This document shows, piece after piece, positions 24,551-31,007 of a DNA stretch of 64,000 bases. Under the pieces are notes generated by a model. The model had not been told where the DNA came from and did not search any database. It saw nothing but the letters and a program-made list of their open reading frames with translations. Source of the stretch: Halogeometricum sp. S1BR25-6 (GTDB taxonomy: Archaea; Halobacteriota; Halobacteria; Halobacteriales; Haloferacaceae); the NCBI RefSeq assembly GCF_031624495.1, contig NZ_JAMQOP010000001.1, positions 310,001 to 374,000 of the forward strand, in the 5' to 3' direction. A program made the translations under genes and the position numbers. The stretch's first letter is position 1, and every line of letters starts with the position of its first letter.

Positions 24551-25273
24551 TCAGAGAACCGCCGACGCGGCGAGGGCGACGGCGAGACAGAGCGCCGGGT
24601 AGTCCCGGCGCGCGAACCGCAACTCGGGGAGCGTCGGGTTCCACGCGAAGCACCGGGCGCGGAGCGCCAGCGCCAGTCGGTCCGACCGGGCGAACGCGCG
24701 GCGGACGCCCGCGGCGGCGACGGCGCGCATCCGCGCTCGGAGGGGTCGCCGGTCGCCCAGACGCGCCGTCGACGCCTCGCGGACGCGTCGGAGGTCCGCG
24801 AGGAGGAGCGGGAAAAAGCGGAAGACGAGGCCGACGCCGACGCCGAGGAAGCGGCCGACGCGGCCCGGCACGACGCGCTCTATCGCGGCGCGGGAGTCGC
24901 GGACCGGCGTCGTCCGGAGGTACGTCGCCGAGACGAGGAGGACCAGGAGAACGCGATAGCTCGCCAGCGCGGGTTCGACGGCCGCGGACGGGTCGACGCC
25001 GACGGGGAGCGGTCCGGCCGAGGAGAGCGTCACCGTCCGCGCGAGGGGGGCGACGACGAGGAAGGGAAGCGCCGGCGCGAACCCGCGGAGGGCGTCGACA
25101 GGCGAGACGCGCCCCGCGAGGAGGATTCCGGCCGCGAGGGCGGTGCACGTGGCGAGTCCGGCCGGCTCGGTCCGCGCGAACACGGCGAGGGCGAAGGCGG
25201 CCTGCACGAACAGTTTCGTCCGCGGGTCGAGTCGGTGAGCGACGGAGTCGCCCGGGCAGTACGTCAGCGGCAT
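24551..25273 (-). CDS. bioN: ECF transporter transmembrane component (T subunit)
   Basis: A 240-aa membrane protein of the CbiQ/BioN family, with about five hydrophobic segments and the EcfT coupling helices (RVREASTARLGDRR, and ARCFAWNP with the conserved Ala-Arg motif). It couples ATP hydrolysis by the A subunit to substrate release from the S subunit. Its start overlaps the end of the ATPase gene by 10 nt, so translation is coupled. As bioY is the first gene, it is assigned to biotin uptake. Third gene of the bioY-bioM-bioN operon. Confidence 0.9.
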   Translation of the reverse strand: MPLTYCPGDSVAHRLDPRTKLFVQAAFALAVFARTEPAGLATCTALAAGILLAGRVSPVDALRGFAPALPFLVVAPLARTVTLSSAGPLPVGVDPSAAVEPALASYRVLLVLLVSATYLRTTPVRDSRAAIERVVPGRVGRFLGVGVGLVFRFFPLLLADLRRVREASTARLGDRRPLRARMRAVAAAGVRRAFARSDRLALALRARCFAWNPTLPELRFARRDYPALCLAVALAASAVL

Positions 25274-25992
25274 CGGCCGGTGGAGCGGCGGCGCGGCGCG
25301 CGCACGTCGTACGCCTCCAACTCGTCGACGACCCGATCCGGCGTTCCGTCCGCGACGACCCGAGCGTCGGCCATCACGACGGCCCTGTCCGCGAGTCCGA
25401 GCACGTCGCGCACGTCGTGCGTGACGACGACGACGCTCGTCCCCGCGTCGTTCAGGGTTTCGAGTCTGTCGAGCACCGCCTCGCGCGCGGGCGCGTCGAG
25501 TCCGGTGAACGGTTCGTCGAGGACGAGGTGGCTCGGCCGCATCGCCAGCGCCCCCGCGATGGCGGCGCGTTCCTGCTCGCCGCCGGAAAGTTCGTCCACG
25601 CGGGCGTCCCTTCTCTCGCTCAGGTTCACGGCGTTGAGGGCGTCCGCGACGCGTTCGTCTATCTCGTCTCGGGGCAGGCCGAGGTTCTCCGGACCGAACG
25701 CCACGTCCCCGCCCACCGTCGCGGCGACGAACTGGTCGCGCGGTTCTTGAAACACCATCCCGACGGCGGTTCTGGCGGCGACGGGGTGCTCTGAGACCGA
25801 GCGACCGTCGACGAATACCTCCCCCGAATCGGGTTCGAGGAGGCCGTTGAAGTGGCGCACGAGCGTGGTCTTGCCGGACCCGTTCGCGCCGGCCAGCAGG
25901 ACGAACTCGCCGTCGTCGATGTCCAGCGTCACGCCGTCGACGGCGACGCTGTCGCCGTAGTGGTGGACCAGCGACTCGGTGCGGACGGTCAC
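25264..25992 (-). CDS. bioM: ECF transporter ATP-binding protein
   Basis: A 242-aa ABC ATPase. Walker A GANGSGKTT near residue 35, Q-loop MVFQEPRDQ, signature LSGGEQERAAIAGAL, Walker B HLVLDEPFT and the switch His (VVTHD) are all present. It is an ECF A subunit (CbiO/BioM type). It follows bioY by 19 nt, and the T subunit overlaps its 3' end, so one transporter is encoded by three adjacent genes. The second A-subunit copy seen in some ECF systems is absent; one ATPase may homodimerise. Confidence 0.92.
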   Translation of the reverse strand: MTVRTESLVHHYGDSVAVDGVTLDIDDGEFVLLAGANGSGKTTLVRHFNGLLEPDSGEVFVDGRSVSEHPVAARTAVGMVFQEPRDQFVAATVGGDVAFGPENLGLPRDEIDERVADALNAVNLSERRDARVDELSGGEQERAAIAGALAMRPSHLVLDEPFTGLDAPAREAVLDRLETLNDAGTSVVVVTHDVRDVLGLADRAVVMADARVVADGTPDRVVDELEAYDVRAPRRRSTGRCR

Positions 25993-26011: not shown

Positions 26012-26617
26012 TCATTCGGCCGTCGCGGCGTCGCTCCGGACGACGCCGACGGCGGCGGCCATCTTCACCGCCTCGAACGGGACGAACGCGAGGGCGCTGA
26101 CGACGAACGCGCGGGTGAGGGCCTCCGGAGCGAACGCGCCGGCGAGACCGTTCTCGACGATGGCGTAGCCGACGGTGCCGAGGGCGTAGATGACGACGGT
26201 GCCGGCGACCATACCACCGACGAGGCGAATCAGCCCCACCTCGGATGGGTCGCGCAGGTCGCCGACTCCGTGGACGATAGCCCCGATGAGGGCCGCCGCG
26301 AGCGGGTACGACCAGAGAAAGCCGGCGGTGTAGCTCACGAACGACCCGAGACCGGCGGACCCGCCGGCGAAGACGGGGGCGCCGGCGGCGCCGGCGACGA
26401 GGTAGAGAACGAGGGACGCGCCGCCCCAGACCGGCCCCAGAAAGATGCCAGCGAGGAAGACACCGAGTACCTGCAGGCTCACCGGGACGGGCGAGACGGG
26501 GTTCGGGAACGAGACGTAGGCGAACGCGCCCGTGAGTGCCGCGAACAGCGCCGCGCGGGCGACGTTGCCAACCACGTCGTCGCCGACGAGTTCGACCGAC
26601 TCCGCGTTAGTCGACAT
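26012..26617 (-). CDS. bioY: biotin transporter substrate-binding protein BioY
   Basis: A 201-aa membrane protein with six helices, the S component of an ECF transporter. Family traits are PVPVSLQVLGVFLAGIFLGP near residue 45 (helix 1-2 loop binding biotin), the Gly-rich YLVAGAAGAPVFAGG and RLVGGMVAGTVV. The ATG at 26617 is preceded by GGAGGAG (ribosome site) and by a BirA-type operator at 26631-26662, so expression should respond to biotin through BirA. Haloarchaea depend on biotin import or synthesis for biotin-dependent carboxylases. Confidence 0.93.
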   Translation of the reverse strand: MSTNAESVELVGDDVVGNVARAALFAALTGAFAYVSFPNPVSPVPVSLQVLGVFLAGIFLGPVWGGASLVLYLVAGAAGAPVFAGGSAGLGSFVSYTAGFLWSYPLAAALIGAIVHGVGDLRDPSEVGLIRLVGGMVAGTVVIYALGTVGYAIVENGLAGAFAPEALTRAFVVSALAFVPFEAVKMAAAVGVVRSDAATAE

Positions 26618-26630
26618 ACTCCTCCGTGTC

Positions 26631-26662
26631 TCGTAAACCACTATCAGTCGTTCGGTTTACGA
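26631..26662. promoter_or_regulatory. BirA-type biotin operator
   Basis: TCGTAAACC (26631-26639), 14 nt, then GGTTTACGA (26654-26662), a perfect 9-bp inverted repeat. It closely matches the bacterial BirA consensus TTGTAAACC-N14/15-GGTTTACAA, and sits directly over the bioY promoter region. Only the second base of each arm's outer end differs from that consensus. Confidence 0.75.
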
Positions 26663-26767: not shown

Positions 26768-27379
26768 ATGGACGAGAAGACGGCCGAACTCAGGGACATC
26801 TTCGTCGAGACGACGGGGTCGGAGTCGGTGACGGAGCGACAGGAGGAGTCGCCCGGGTCGTTGACGGACGCCCCCGACGACGAGGAGCGAAACCGCCGGG
26901 TTGCGGAACTCGTCGCGGCGATGCGGGAGCGCTACGAGTTCGAGTCGGACCTCTCGGGCGAGGACTTACGTCGGGTCGTCCGCGGGTTCTTCGACGGCGA
27001 CGCCGACGCGGAACTCGCGGCGGTTCTGGAGGCGAACGCCGACAAGGCGGACGTGTTCGTCGCGCGGACGGACCTCCACCTCCTCCGGGAGTCGGACGCC
27101 GACGCGCCGTTCTCGCTCGACGCGTTGCGGTCGCTCCTCGACGACGGCGCGGACGACGAGGCGTGCGCGGCCGCACTCGACGCCGACGCCGAGACGGTGG
27201 CGCGCGCCCGCCGCGTCGTCGAGGCGCGGCGCGAGGCGACGCGCGCGAACGACCGCTTCCGCGGCGAGTTCGAGGAACTGTTGACCGACTCGGACCTCTC
27301 GGCGCGACTCGCGGAGGACGCCCGCCGCGACGGCCTGCGCGAGGCCACCGAGGACATCGAGACGGACGTTTCGTTGTAG
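26768..27379 (+). CDS. conserved haloarchaeal helical protein (conditioned-medium-induced protein 4-like)
   Basis: A 203-aa, highly acidic, predicted all-helical protein beginning MDEKTAELRDIFVETTGSESVT. It has no catalytic motif, membrane segment or Cys. I recall close relatives annotated as conditioned medium-induced protein 4, a gene seen in haloarchaeal growth-phase studies; that name is from memory. It contains a Glu/Arg-rich central helix pair and a C-terminal segment TDSDLSARLAEDARRDGL. It lies 109 nt upstream of mcm on the same strand, and the two may be co-expressed. Confidence 0.75.
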   Translation: MDEKTAELRDIFVETTGSESVTERQEESPGSLTDAPDDEERNRRVAELVAAMRERYEFESDLSGEDLRRVVRGFFDGDADAELAAVLEANADKADVFVARTDLHLLRESDADAPFSLDALRSLLDDGADDEACAAALDADAETVARARRVVEARREATRANDRFRGEFEELLTDSDLSARLAEDARRDGLREATEDIETDVSL

Positions 27380-27488: not shown

Positions 27489-30400
27489 ATGGCACAGGCC
27501 CCGCAGGACCCGGACGTGGACCTCACCGACCGGTTCGTCCAGTTCTACAGAAAGTACTACAGCGACGATATCGGCCGCCTCGCTCAGCGGTATCCGAACG
27601 AACAGCGCTCGTTGTACGTCGACTACGACGACCTGTTCCGCTTCGACGAGGACCTCGCGGAGGACTACCGCAAGAAACCCGACCAGATACGCGAGTACGC
27701 CGAGGAGGCCCTCCGCCTCTACGACCTCCCGGTCGACGTGAAACTCGGGCGCGCGCACGTCCGCCTCCACAACCTCCCGGACTCCGTCGACATCAGGAAC
27801 ATCCGCGTCCACGACGACCACATCGGACGGATGGTCTCGGTCAAAGGAATCGTCCGCAAGGCGACGGACGTCCGCCCGAAGATAACCGAGGCCGCCTTCG
27901 AGTGTCAGCGCTGCGGGACGATGACGTACATCCCGCAGACCGACAGCGGCTTTCAGGAACCCCACGAGTGTCAGGGCTGCGAGCGACAGGGACCGTTCCA
28001 CGTCGACTTCGACCAATCGGAGTTCGTCGACTCCCAGAAACTGCGCGTCCAAGAGAGCCCCGAGGGCCTGCGGGGCGGCGAGACGCCGCAGAGCATCGAC
28101 ATCGACACGGAAGACGACATCACGGGTAGAGTGACCGCCGGCGACCACGTCACCGTCACGGGCGTCCTCCACATCGAACAGCAGACTTCCAACCAAGAGA
28201 AGACGCCCATCTTCGACCTCTACATGGACGGCGTCGCCATCGAGATAGAGGACGAGGAGTTCGAGGACATGGACATCTCCGAGGAGGACGTCGCGGAGAT
28301 TATCGAACTCTCGAACGAGGAGAACATCTACGAGAAGATGGTCGGCTCCGTCGCTCCCTCCATCTACGGCTACGAACAGGAGAAACTCGCGATGATCCTC
28401 CAACTGTTCTCCGGCGTCACCAAACACCTCCCCGACGGGTCGCGGATTCGGGGGGACTTACACATGCTGCTGATAGGGGACCCGGGTACGGGGAAGTGCG
28501 TCGCCGGAGACACCCGGGTGACGATGGCCGACGGATCGGAGGTTCCCATCCGCGAACTCGTGGAGCGAAACCTCGACGACCCGAAACCAGTGGACGACGG
28601 CGTGTGGGACTCGGTCGACTTCGCGGTGCCGTCGATGGCGCACGACGGGTCGATATCGTCGCGGCGGGCGACGAAGGTCTGGAAGCGCGAGGCACCTGAG
28701 CGGATGTACGAGATTCGGACCGCCAGCGGGCGCGAACTCACCGTCACGCCGTCGCACCCGCTGTTCGTCGGTCGCGACGGCGGCACCGACGCCGTCGTCG
28801 CCGAGAACCTCGAACCGGGCGAGTTCGTCGCCGTCCCCCGGTCGCTCCCAGCCGAGGGCGACGACTCGCTCGACGTCTCGATACGCCGTTCGCAGTCGAA
28901 CAACGCCGTGCGACTCGACGTCCCCGACCGACTGACGCCGTCGCTCGCGCGTCTCCTCGGGTACGTCGCCGCCGAAGGCTACGTCGAGCGACGCGACTCG
29001 GGAAGCGCGTTCGTCTCGCTGACGAACAACGACCGCGAGATACTCGACGACGTCGCCGACGCACTCGCCGAACTCGGCCTCTCGGCGACCGAACGCTCCC
29101 CGCACGACGGAAAGACCGCGAGGGAACTCACCTGCTCGTCGTCCGAACTGGTGAGCCTCCTCGAAGCACTCGAACCGGCGCTGCTGGAGGGGTCCGGTGA
29201 ACAGCGCGTCCCCGGATCGATTCTCCGAGCGACGCGCCCCGTCAAGCGAGGGTTCCTCCGCGCCTTTGTCGACGCGGAAGGCACCGTCTCTCCGACGCAA
29301 CGAGAGGCGACCATCTCTTCGACGAGCCGCGACGTTCTCGAAGGGGTTCGGAGTCTTCTCCTCGCGTTCGGCGTCGACTCACAGCTTCGACCGAAGGCGG
29401 GCGGCAGTTTCCGCCTCCGAATCAGCGGCGACGACTTCGCCCGCTACACCGAACGAGTCGGCTTCGTCGTCGAACGGAAGAGCGAGGCCGCCGCAGCGGT
29501 CGTCGACGCCGACGGAAACACGAATCGAGACGTCGTTCCCGGCGTCGGTGGAACGCTCCGCGACCTGCGCGAATCGCTCGGACTGGCGCAGGCTGACTGC
29601 GGACTCCCGCGCAGTACGTACCAACACTACGAGCGCGGCGACCGGAATCCGAGTCGGGACAGCCTCCGGACGGTCGTGCAGACGTTCGCGAAGGCCGCCG
29701 AGGACGGACTCGCCGCCGACGGCGACGGCGGCGCGAGCGTCGAACGCCGACTCGCCTCGCTCCGCGCCCTCGCGGACGGCGATATCGCGTGGGACCGAAT
29801 CGAGGCCATTGAGCCGGTTGAATCCGACGAGGAGTGGGTGTACGACCTCGAAATCGAGGGGACGCACAACTTCCTCACGAACAACGTCGTCTCTCACAAC
29901 TCCCAGATGCTCCAGTATATCCGGAACATCGCGCCCCGGTCGGTGTACACCTCCGGGAAGGGTTCCTCCTCAGCGGGTCTTACTGCAGCGGCTGTACGCG
30001 ACGATTTCGGCGACGGGCAGCAGTGGACGCTCGAAGCAGGCGCCCTCGTCCTCGCCGACAAGGGTATCGCGGCCGTGGACGAACTGGACAAGATGCGGCC
30101 GGAAGACCGCTCTGCGATGCACGAGGGTCTCGAACAGCAGCAGATTTCGGTGTCGAAGGCCGGTATCAACGCCACGCTCAAAGCCAGATGTTCGCTGCTC
30201 GGCGCGGCGAACCCCAAGTACGGACGGTTCGACCAGTACGAACCCATCGGCGAGCAGATAGACCTCGAACCCGCGCTCATCTCGCGGTTCGACCTCATCT
30301 TCACGGTGACGGACGACCCCGACCCGGACACCGACGCCGAACTCGCGGACCACATCATCAACACGAACTACGCGGGCGAACTGCACACCCAGCGGACGAA

Positions 30401-31007
30401 GATAGCCAACTCCGAGTTCACCGAGGACGAGGTGAACGCGGTCACACAGGAGGTGGCCCCGGAGATAGACGCCGAACTCCTGCGGAAGTACATCGCCTAC
30501 GCGAAGCGCAACTGTTACCCGACGATGACGCAGGAGGCCAAAGAGACCATCCGCGACTTCTACGTCAACTTCCGCGCGAAGGGCTCCGACGAGGACTCGC
30601 CCATCCCCGTCACCGCCCGGAAACTCGAAGCGCTCGTCCGCCTCGCGGAGGCGTCGGCGCGTGTTCGTCTCTCGGACACCGTCAGCGAGGAGGACGCCGT
30701 CCGCGTCACCAACATCGTCGAGTCCTGCCTGCGCGACATCGGGATGGACCCCGAGACGGGCGAGTTCGACGCCGACATCGTTGAGACGGGTACCTCGAAG
30801 AACCAGCGGGACCGGATCAAGAACCTGAAGGCGCTCATCAACGAACTCGAAGACGAGTACGAGGGCGGTGCGCCCGTGGACGAGGTGCTCGCCCGCGCGG
30901 AGGCGGAACTCAACCTCAGCGAGGGCAAGGCCGAACAGGAGATAGAGAGCCTGCGTCGGAAGGGCGAGGTGTACGAACCGCGGACCGACCACCTGCGGAC
31001 GACGTAG
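27489..31007 (+). CDS. mcm: replicative helicase MCM, interrupted by an intein
   Basis: The homohexameric 3'-5' replicative helicase; loading involves Orc1/Cdc6. The precursor is 1172 aa and the mature protein is 704 aa after removal of the intein. It has an N-terminal domain with a zinc site C139, C142, C161, C164; Walker A IGDPGTGK interrupted after Lys336, resuming SQML after splicing; Walker B AAVDELDK near 862; sensor 1 LLGAANPKYG; arginine finger LISRFDLIF; and a winged-helix C-terminus. Splicing is needed because the intein splits the ATP-binding loop, so no function exists before it. Confidence 0.97.
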   Translation: MAQAPQDPDVDLTDRFVQFYRKYYSDDIGRLAQRYPNEQRSLYVDYDDLFRFDEDLAEDYRKKPDQIREYAEEALRLYDLPVDVKLGRAHVRLHNLPDSVDIRNIRVHDDHIGRMVSVKGIVRKATDVRPKITEAAFECQRCGTMTYIPQTDSGFQEPHECQGCERQGPFHVDFDQSEFVDSQKLRVQESPEGLRGGETPQSIDIDTEDDITGRVTAGDHVTVTGVLHIEQQTSNQEKTPIFDLYMDGVAIEIEDEEFEDMDISEEDVAEIIELSNEENIYEKMVGSVAPSIYGYEQEKLAMILQLFSGVTKHLPDGSRIRGDLHMLLIGDPGTGKCVAGDTRVTMADGSEVPIRELVERNLDDPKPVDDGVWDSVDFAVPSMAHDGSISSRRATKVWKREAPERMYEIRTASGRELTVTPSHPLFVGRDGGTDAVVAENLEPGEFVAVPRSLPAEGDDSLDVSIRRSQSNNAVRLDVPDRLTPSLARLLGYVAAEGYVERRDSGSAFVSLTNNDREILDDVADALAELGLSATERSPHDGKTARELTCSSSELVSLLEALEPALLEGSGEQRVPGSILRATRPVKRGFLRAFVDAEGTVSPTQREATISSTSRDVLEGVRSLLLAFGVDSQLRPKAGGSFRLRISGDDFARYTERVGFVVERKSEAAAAVVDADGNTNRDVVPGVGGTLRDLRESLGLAQADCGLPRSTYQHYERGDRNPSRDSLRTVVQTFAKAAEDGLAADGDGGASVERRLASLRALADGDIAWDRIEAIEPVESDEEWVYDLEIEGTHNFLTNNVVSHNSQMLQYIRNIAPRSVYTSGKGSSSAGLTAAAVRDDFGDGQQWTLEAGALVLADKGIAAVDELDKMRPEDRSAMHEGLEQQQISVSKAGINATLKARCSLLGAANPKYGRFDQYEPIGEQIDLEPALISRFDLIFTVTDDPDPDTDAELADHIINTNYAGELHTQRTKIANSEFTEDEVNAVTQEVAPEIDAELLRKYIAYAKRNCYPTMTQEAKETIRDFYVNFRAKGSDEDSPIPVTARKLEALVRLAEASARVRLSDTVSEEDAVRVTNIVESCLRDIGMDPETGEFDADIVETGTSKNQRDRIKNLKALINELEDEYEGGAPVDEVLARAEAELNLSEGKAEQEIESLRRKGEVYEPRTDHLRTT
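28497..29900 (+). mobile_element. MCM intein with LAGLIDADG homing endonuclease and HTH-like segment
   Basis: A 468-aa intein spanning residues 337-804 of the precursor. Block A starts CVAGDTRVTMADG, block B is ELTVTPSHPLFV (TxxH), and blocks F/G are VYDLEIEGTHNF...NNVVSHN with C-extein Ser. Two LAGLIDADG motifs are visible: LLGYVAAEGY (about 28951) and LRAFVDAEGT (about 29252), both with Glu at the catalytic-acid position. Around 29550-29700 a stretch LRESLGLAQADCGLPRSTY resembles an XRE-type helix-turn-helix, likely part of target recognition. Its integrity suggests ongoing homing ability, not shown. Confidence 0.93.

Follow-up and report, generated by a model that had tools for sequence, protein, structure and literature searches.

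BirA control of biotin genes in archaea is, as a general idea, not new: Rodionov, Mironov and Gelfand reportedly proposed in 2002 that the BirA regulatory signal is conserved in Eubacteria and Archaea. The archaeal promoter machinery (TBP, TFB, and a eukaryote-like polymerase) is entirely different from that of bacteria, and what is new here is how a BirA operator is built into archaeal promoters. For bacteria, PMC545781 gives the BirA consensus, with credit to Rodionov et al. 2002, as TTGTAAACC-[N14/15]-GGTTTACAA; BirA of Bacillus subtilis is reported to need both biotin and ATP for binding to its three operators (PMC4016012). Among haloarchaea, a BirA and a second biotin protein ligase (BPL) have been reported in Halobacterium (PMC3199775), and bioYMN has been reported in Natrialba magadii, where the excerpted text of the report does not mention an operator (PMC3403918). 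The haloarchaeal motifs given in PMC4983044 are TTWT for the TATA element and CGAAA for the BRE, and the same source puts 72% of the protein-coding transcripts of Haloferax volcanii as leaderless. The open-licence literature that we searched showed no experiments on the haloarchaeal BirA operator and no account of the two promoter geometries described below.

A predicted BirA operator upstream of bioYMN

The window analyzed here is a stretch of 64,000 nucleotides from Halogeometricum sp. S1BR25-6, in which a first-pass annotation had claimed a perfect 9-bp inverted repeat with a 14-bp spacer just upstream of bioY-bioM-bioN. Both the repeat and its position proved exact (Table 1). It reads TCGTAAACCACTATCAGTCGTTCGGTTTACGA, with two perfect 9-bp arms, a spacer of 14 bp, and 0 mismatches to the claimed pattern, and the minus-strand genes that follow are bioY, then an ABC ATPase, then a CbiQ-type permease, a predicted BioYMN biotin importer. 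The likeliest start codon of bioY is the ATG at 26617; the operator ends 13 bp 5′ of it, spans −14 to −45, and lies 5′ of the predicted transcription start.

Table 1. Features of the bioYMN locus and the BirA gene of the same genome
Feature	Position	Strand	Basis or remark
BirA operator (predicted), TCGTAAACC-N14-GGTTTACGA, perfect 9-bp inverted repeat	26631..26662	.	Site searches and comparative counts
TATA-like element of the bioY promoter, CTGATA, within the spacer of the operator at −30 to −25 relative to the ATG	26642..26647	-	TTnAW column conservation at −30..−26, position scan
Candidate BRE (CGAA), which overlaps the upstream half-site at its end	26651..26654	-	Inferred from operator positions 9–12 and haloarchaeal BRE CGAAA
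bioY, biotin transporter S component	26012..26617	-	Pfam BioY PF02632, E 5.5e-33
bioM-like ABC ATPase	25264..25992	-	Pfam ABC_tran, E 2.3e-29
bioN-like transmembrane T component, CbiQ-type permease	24551..25273	-	Pfam CbiQ, E 3.1e-16
Divergent gene without Pfam match	26768..27379	+	Operator ends 105 bp before its ATG
L002, BirA with N-terminal HTH	G000:C2:263292-264329		HTH_11 (residues 13–55), BPL_LplA_LipB, BPL_C

Two other genes near bioY were noted. The divergent gene begins MDEKTAELRDIF... and adjoins bioY in many haloarchaeal relatives. Beyond it lies an MCM helicase gene (27489–31007, plus strand), read as 1172 aa. Its product is interrupted between GDPGTGK-C and SHN-SQMLQ by an insertion that, by its MCM and intein junctions, resembles an intein; an XRE-like helix-turn-helix stretch lies within the insertion.

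The repeat is unique in its genome. In shuffled windows, 0.03 matches were expected at ≤3 mismatches, against one observed in the window, with 0 mismatches. We also searched the whole 4.5-Mb genome for further sites; the repeat was the sole match at ≤3 mismatches, and a reversed control pattern gave 0 matches at the same threshold. With a weight matrix derived from 99 haloarchaeal operator sites (bioY and bioB), the repeat scored 34.6 and the next best place in the window 2.3. The core pattern at ≤3 mismatches matched 43 places in the genome versus 27 for its reversed control, so weak sites there are indistinguishable from noise. A second match to the 14-base core, with 1 mismatch (G000:C2:380251-380278), was dropped as an operator, as its full-matrix score was 6.9 and neither bioY nor bioB is nearby. 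A plasmid-collection DNA search with the bio region returned a single 33-base match and nothing else.

Other targets were considered in the same genome. Autoregulation of birA was rejected because no site was found upstream of birA, the second BPL gene, or lplA (best matrix scores −7, −13, and −8, respectively). Likewise, bioB was rejected as a second target in this organism because a sequence search found no bioB relative in its genome; the same query matched G126, from which it was taken, and G187. By its gene content, the organism appears to be auxotrophic for biotin, and bioYMN is the sole BirA target found.

Comparison with the bacterial BirA operator

The first-pass annotation had further held that the repeat matches the bacterial BirA operator in half-site and spacing, and comparison with the consensus in PMC545781 bears this out. 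The consensus fits 16 of the 18 arm bases, with a mismatch only at position 2 of each arm (TC for TT), and the 14-bp spacer falls in the BirA operator range of 14 or 15 bp. This C is a haloarchaeal feature, present at position 2 in 192 of the 198 half-sites from the 99 sites. Position 5 is A in 113 half-sites and C in 78; the delta-proteobacterial sites tabulated in PMC545781 vary in this way too, many of them having GTcAACC. The half-site core GTAAACC and the 14-bp spacing are common to the haloarchaeal and bacterial operators, as are targets in biotin synthesis and uptake and the number of sites, one or two per genome. Unlike the bacterial operator, the haloarchaeal one has half-sites that start TC, not TT, is set around the archaeal BRE and TATA of apparently leaderless promoters, and at bioB takes in the first codons of the gene.

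At the level of the phylum, the exact two-arm pattern TNGTAAACC-N14-GGTTTACNA, which is strict and would miss most variants, occurred in 14 of 294 genomes. A non-halophilic archaeon of the same phylum (G300) has the exact bacterial form with TT, 4 bp 5′ of a bioY-like gene.

A BirA with a helix-turn-helix domain

Three proteins of the genome have the BPL/LplA/LipB fold: L002 (Table 1), the second BPL-like protein L003, with BPL and BPL_C domains and without an HTH, and L004, of the lipoate ligase type. A BirA with a DNA-binding domain, whose absence the first-pass annotation had named as evidence against its reading, is therefore present as L002 with its HTH_11 match. L002 aligns by sequence with the solved BirA structures of Escherichia coli (1bia) and Staphylococcus aureus (6apw/6ndl), starting at query residue 8 or 18, and the alignment takes in most of the HTH, which also matches several other HTH models weakly. 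Like E. coli BirA (1bia) and S. aureus BirA (6ndl), both of them Group II biotin protein ligases, L002 combines an N-terminal HTH with BPL catalytic and BPL_C domains, and on its domain content it is a bifunctional (Group II) BirA, a predicted ligase and repressor. Unlike in the E. coli and S. aureus enzymes, DNA binding by the haloarchaeal BirA is a prediction from sequence, and the genome encodes the HTH-less L003 besides it.

Conservation across Halobacteriales

Absence of the repeat before bioY in close relatives was the other finding named as contrary evidence; instead, the repeat recurs widely. Our named-genome set comprised 80 bioY loci, 40 haloarchaeal (L005–L043 and L052) and 40 bacterial. 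Of the haloarchaeal loci, 31 of 40 have a site at ≤3 mismatches, 12–13 bp before the match start save for two at 22 bp with a differing N-terminus. Six more (6/40) have 4–5 mismatches in the corresponding place, and 3/40 had no recognizable site in this mismatch scan, in which shuffled sequence seldom fell below 5 mismatches. Most of the 40 bacterial loci were without a site in the scan, which was untuned to bacteria (L062 was too short to scan); the bacterial locus L057 has a site with 1 mismatch.

Across 293 Halobacteriales genomes, the site was found at ≤2 mismatches in 192 and the reversed control pattern in 2. Among the 75 sites listed (more exist), 74 adjoin bioY or bioB (bioB 40, bioY 34, none 1). 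A second search of 13 genomes, all but one of which have two or three sites, gave 30 sites, 25 of which adjoin bioB (13) or bioY (12); every one of the five near neither gene was a 2-mismatch match. The distance from operator to bioY is 12–13 bp in 39 of 46 bioY sites. We then drew 40 further bioY upstream regions from genomes without a site at ≤2 mismatches, and 39 of them hold a weaker site, usually 12–14 bp 5′ of the start codon, with matrix scores of 13 to 31 versus a shuffle 99th percentile of 8.6 (400 shuffles). The lone exception, G015, has a BirA with a divergent N-terminus and no site. In a last set of 12 genomes, one without BioY, six of the 11 bioY loci have the site and five do not; G015 is again among this set.

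Operator and promoter geometry at bioY and bioB

We aligned 32 bioY loci of haloarchaea: that of the window, plus 31 of the 40 named ones selected because their start codons line up. Their half-sites hardly differ, in contrast to the flanks and the greater part of the spacer, which are variable. That contrast bears on whether the repeat could have arisen by chance, or be no more than a relic kept through common descent. Flanking DNA is common to related genomes, as descent would have it, but the half-sites stand out from those flanks and from most of the spacer, the same motif precedes an unrelated gene, bioB, and the expectation by chance is as low as 0.03 per window; we consider this explanation scarcely credible.

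Within the spacer, one block is conserved, with T at −30 in 26 of the 32 loci, T at −29 in 29, A at −27 in 30, and A or T at −26 in 31. In the window, the TATA-like element lies in this part of the spacer (Table 1), and the operator at bioY extends from about −45 to −14. A TATA centred near −28, counted from the start codon, agrees with a leaderless bioY mRNA. Because the spacer holds the TATA and the candidate BRE is partly covered by the upstream half-site, a bound dimer should exclude TBP and TFB. The operator sits between two divergent genes, and BirA might instead bind there to activate bioY or to control the divergent gene. However, its overlap with the bioY TATA is a position that fits TBP exclusion, and its distance to bioY is near constant (12–13 bp in 39/46), whereas that to the divergent gene ranged over 57–118 bp in the loci examined (105 in the window). 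We therefore judge activation or control of the divergent gene very unlikely, and the divergent gene is probably outside operator control; repression of bioY by exclusion of TBP and TFB is the reading that we follow below.

The geometry at bioB is different. The start codon falls at operator positions 22–24 in 51 of 53 bioB sites (GTG in 40, ATG in 11), so that the right arm encodes residues 2–4, and the first residues of BioB are V/M-V-Y-E in most. At L116 (1501–1577) and 50 other bioB loci, the right operator arm also opens the BioB reading frame, so that one DNA stretch is both operator and coding sequence. Directly 5′ of the operator, which covers about −21 to +11, are a TTTAT block and a CGAA-like block, and the TATA-like hexamer is commonest at −30 from the start codon, as at bioY. 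At bioY and bioB alike, TATA precedes the start codon by about 30 bp, a distance at which both mRNAs would be leaderless.

A possible case of joint loss of operator and BirA HTH

The site occurs in 192 of the 275 Halobacteriales genomes with BirA and in none of the 18 without a BirA match (Fisher 1.6e-9; the genomes are related). None of these 18 appears among the genomes with a BioY match either, so the correlation may be due simply to loss of the pathway as a whole, and for this reason, and because of relatedness, we give the Fisher result little weight.

The genome G251 is from the same family as the genome of the window. Its sole BirA locus matches from query residue 56, a search of that locus for the HTH segment found nothing, and the protein matches L002 at 51% over residues 57–342, better than it matches the second BPL. 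Its bioY is orthologous and keeps a TATA-like TTAATC upstream, while the operator is absent. The loci concerned are L255 and L270, with an HTH-less BirA ortholog and a bioY promoter that has TATA and is without an operator. As far as these sequences go, G251 fits operator loss paired with loss of the BirA HTH, and it is the single clean case. G019 has neither HTH nor operator; it is not a clean case because its BioY is from another subfamily. G016 has a BirA without HTH and has no bioY, and in G009, G011, and G013, both the BirA HTH and sites are present. Before a BioY of another subfamily, G026, whose BirA has the HTH (match from residue 1), and G038, which has a BirA match, have no operator. 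This second BioY subfamily was observed in some halophilic archaea (L271, L272, and L266, from G038, G026, and G019), with no BirA operator upstream.

The case of G251 also bears on which protein reads the site. Another winged-helix regulator could do so, with the BirA HTH serving elsewhere; other HTH proteins exist, and the weak matches of the BirA HTH to several other HTH models leave some room for this. But half-site and spacing both fit the BirA consensus as published, and G251 is without operator and without BirA HTH in the same genome, and we hold a different regulator to be improbable.

Discussion

We put at about 0.9 the probability that the repeat is the operator of a Group II BirA that would repress bioYMN when biotin is plentiful. 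Its uniqueness in the genome, the HTH-bearing BirA encoded there, and its conservation before bioY support the operator reading of the first-pass annotation; binding, the requirement for biotinyl-AMP, repression as the sign of control, and leaderless transcription are what we infer. By analogy with bacterial BirA, plentiful biotin would lead BirA to make biotinyl-AMP, dimerize, and bind the two half-sites. At bioY, the dimer bound over BRE and TATA would keep off TBP and TFB, and transcription of bioYMN would stop; when biotin is scarce, BirA would leave the site and uptake would be switched on. At bioB, where the operator lies between the TATA and the fourth codon, the dimer would block RNA polymerase loading or initiation.

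With less assurance, we lean toward a broader picture in which one repressor and one DNA code serve two archaeal promoter layouts: exclusion of TBP and TFB at bioY, and at bioB an operator 3′ of the TATA, over the predicted start and read as the first codons, with a lineage of HTH-less BirA that is without the bioY operator and has kept the promoter. The BirA-type signal shared by bacteria and archaea is common ground with what was reportedly proposed in 2002; the count across haloarchaea, the G251 case, and the two promoter geometries come from the present analysis. If the broader picture is true, one repressor would act on archaeal initiation at two distinct steps, blocking each. In archaea, a bacterial repressor that senses a ligand appears nearly unchanged, as does its DNA code. 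The bioY and bioB promoters would be a tractable place to compare blocking of TBP at one gene with blocking of initiation at the other, in workable hosts such as Haloferax, and they may yield a biotin-controlled promoter pair for haloarchaeal genetics.
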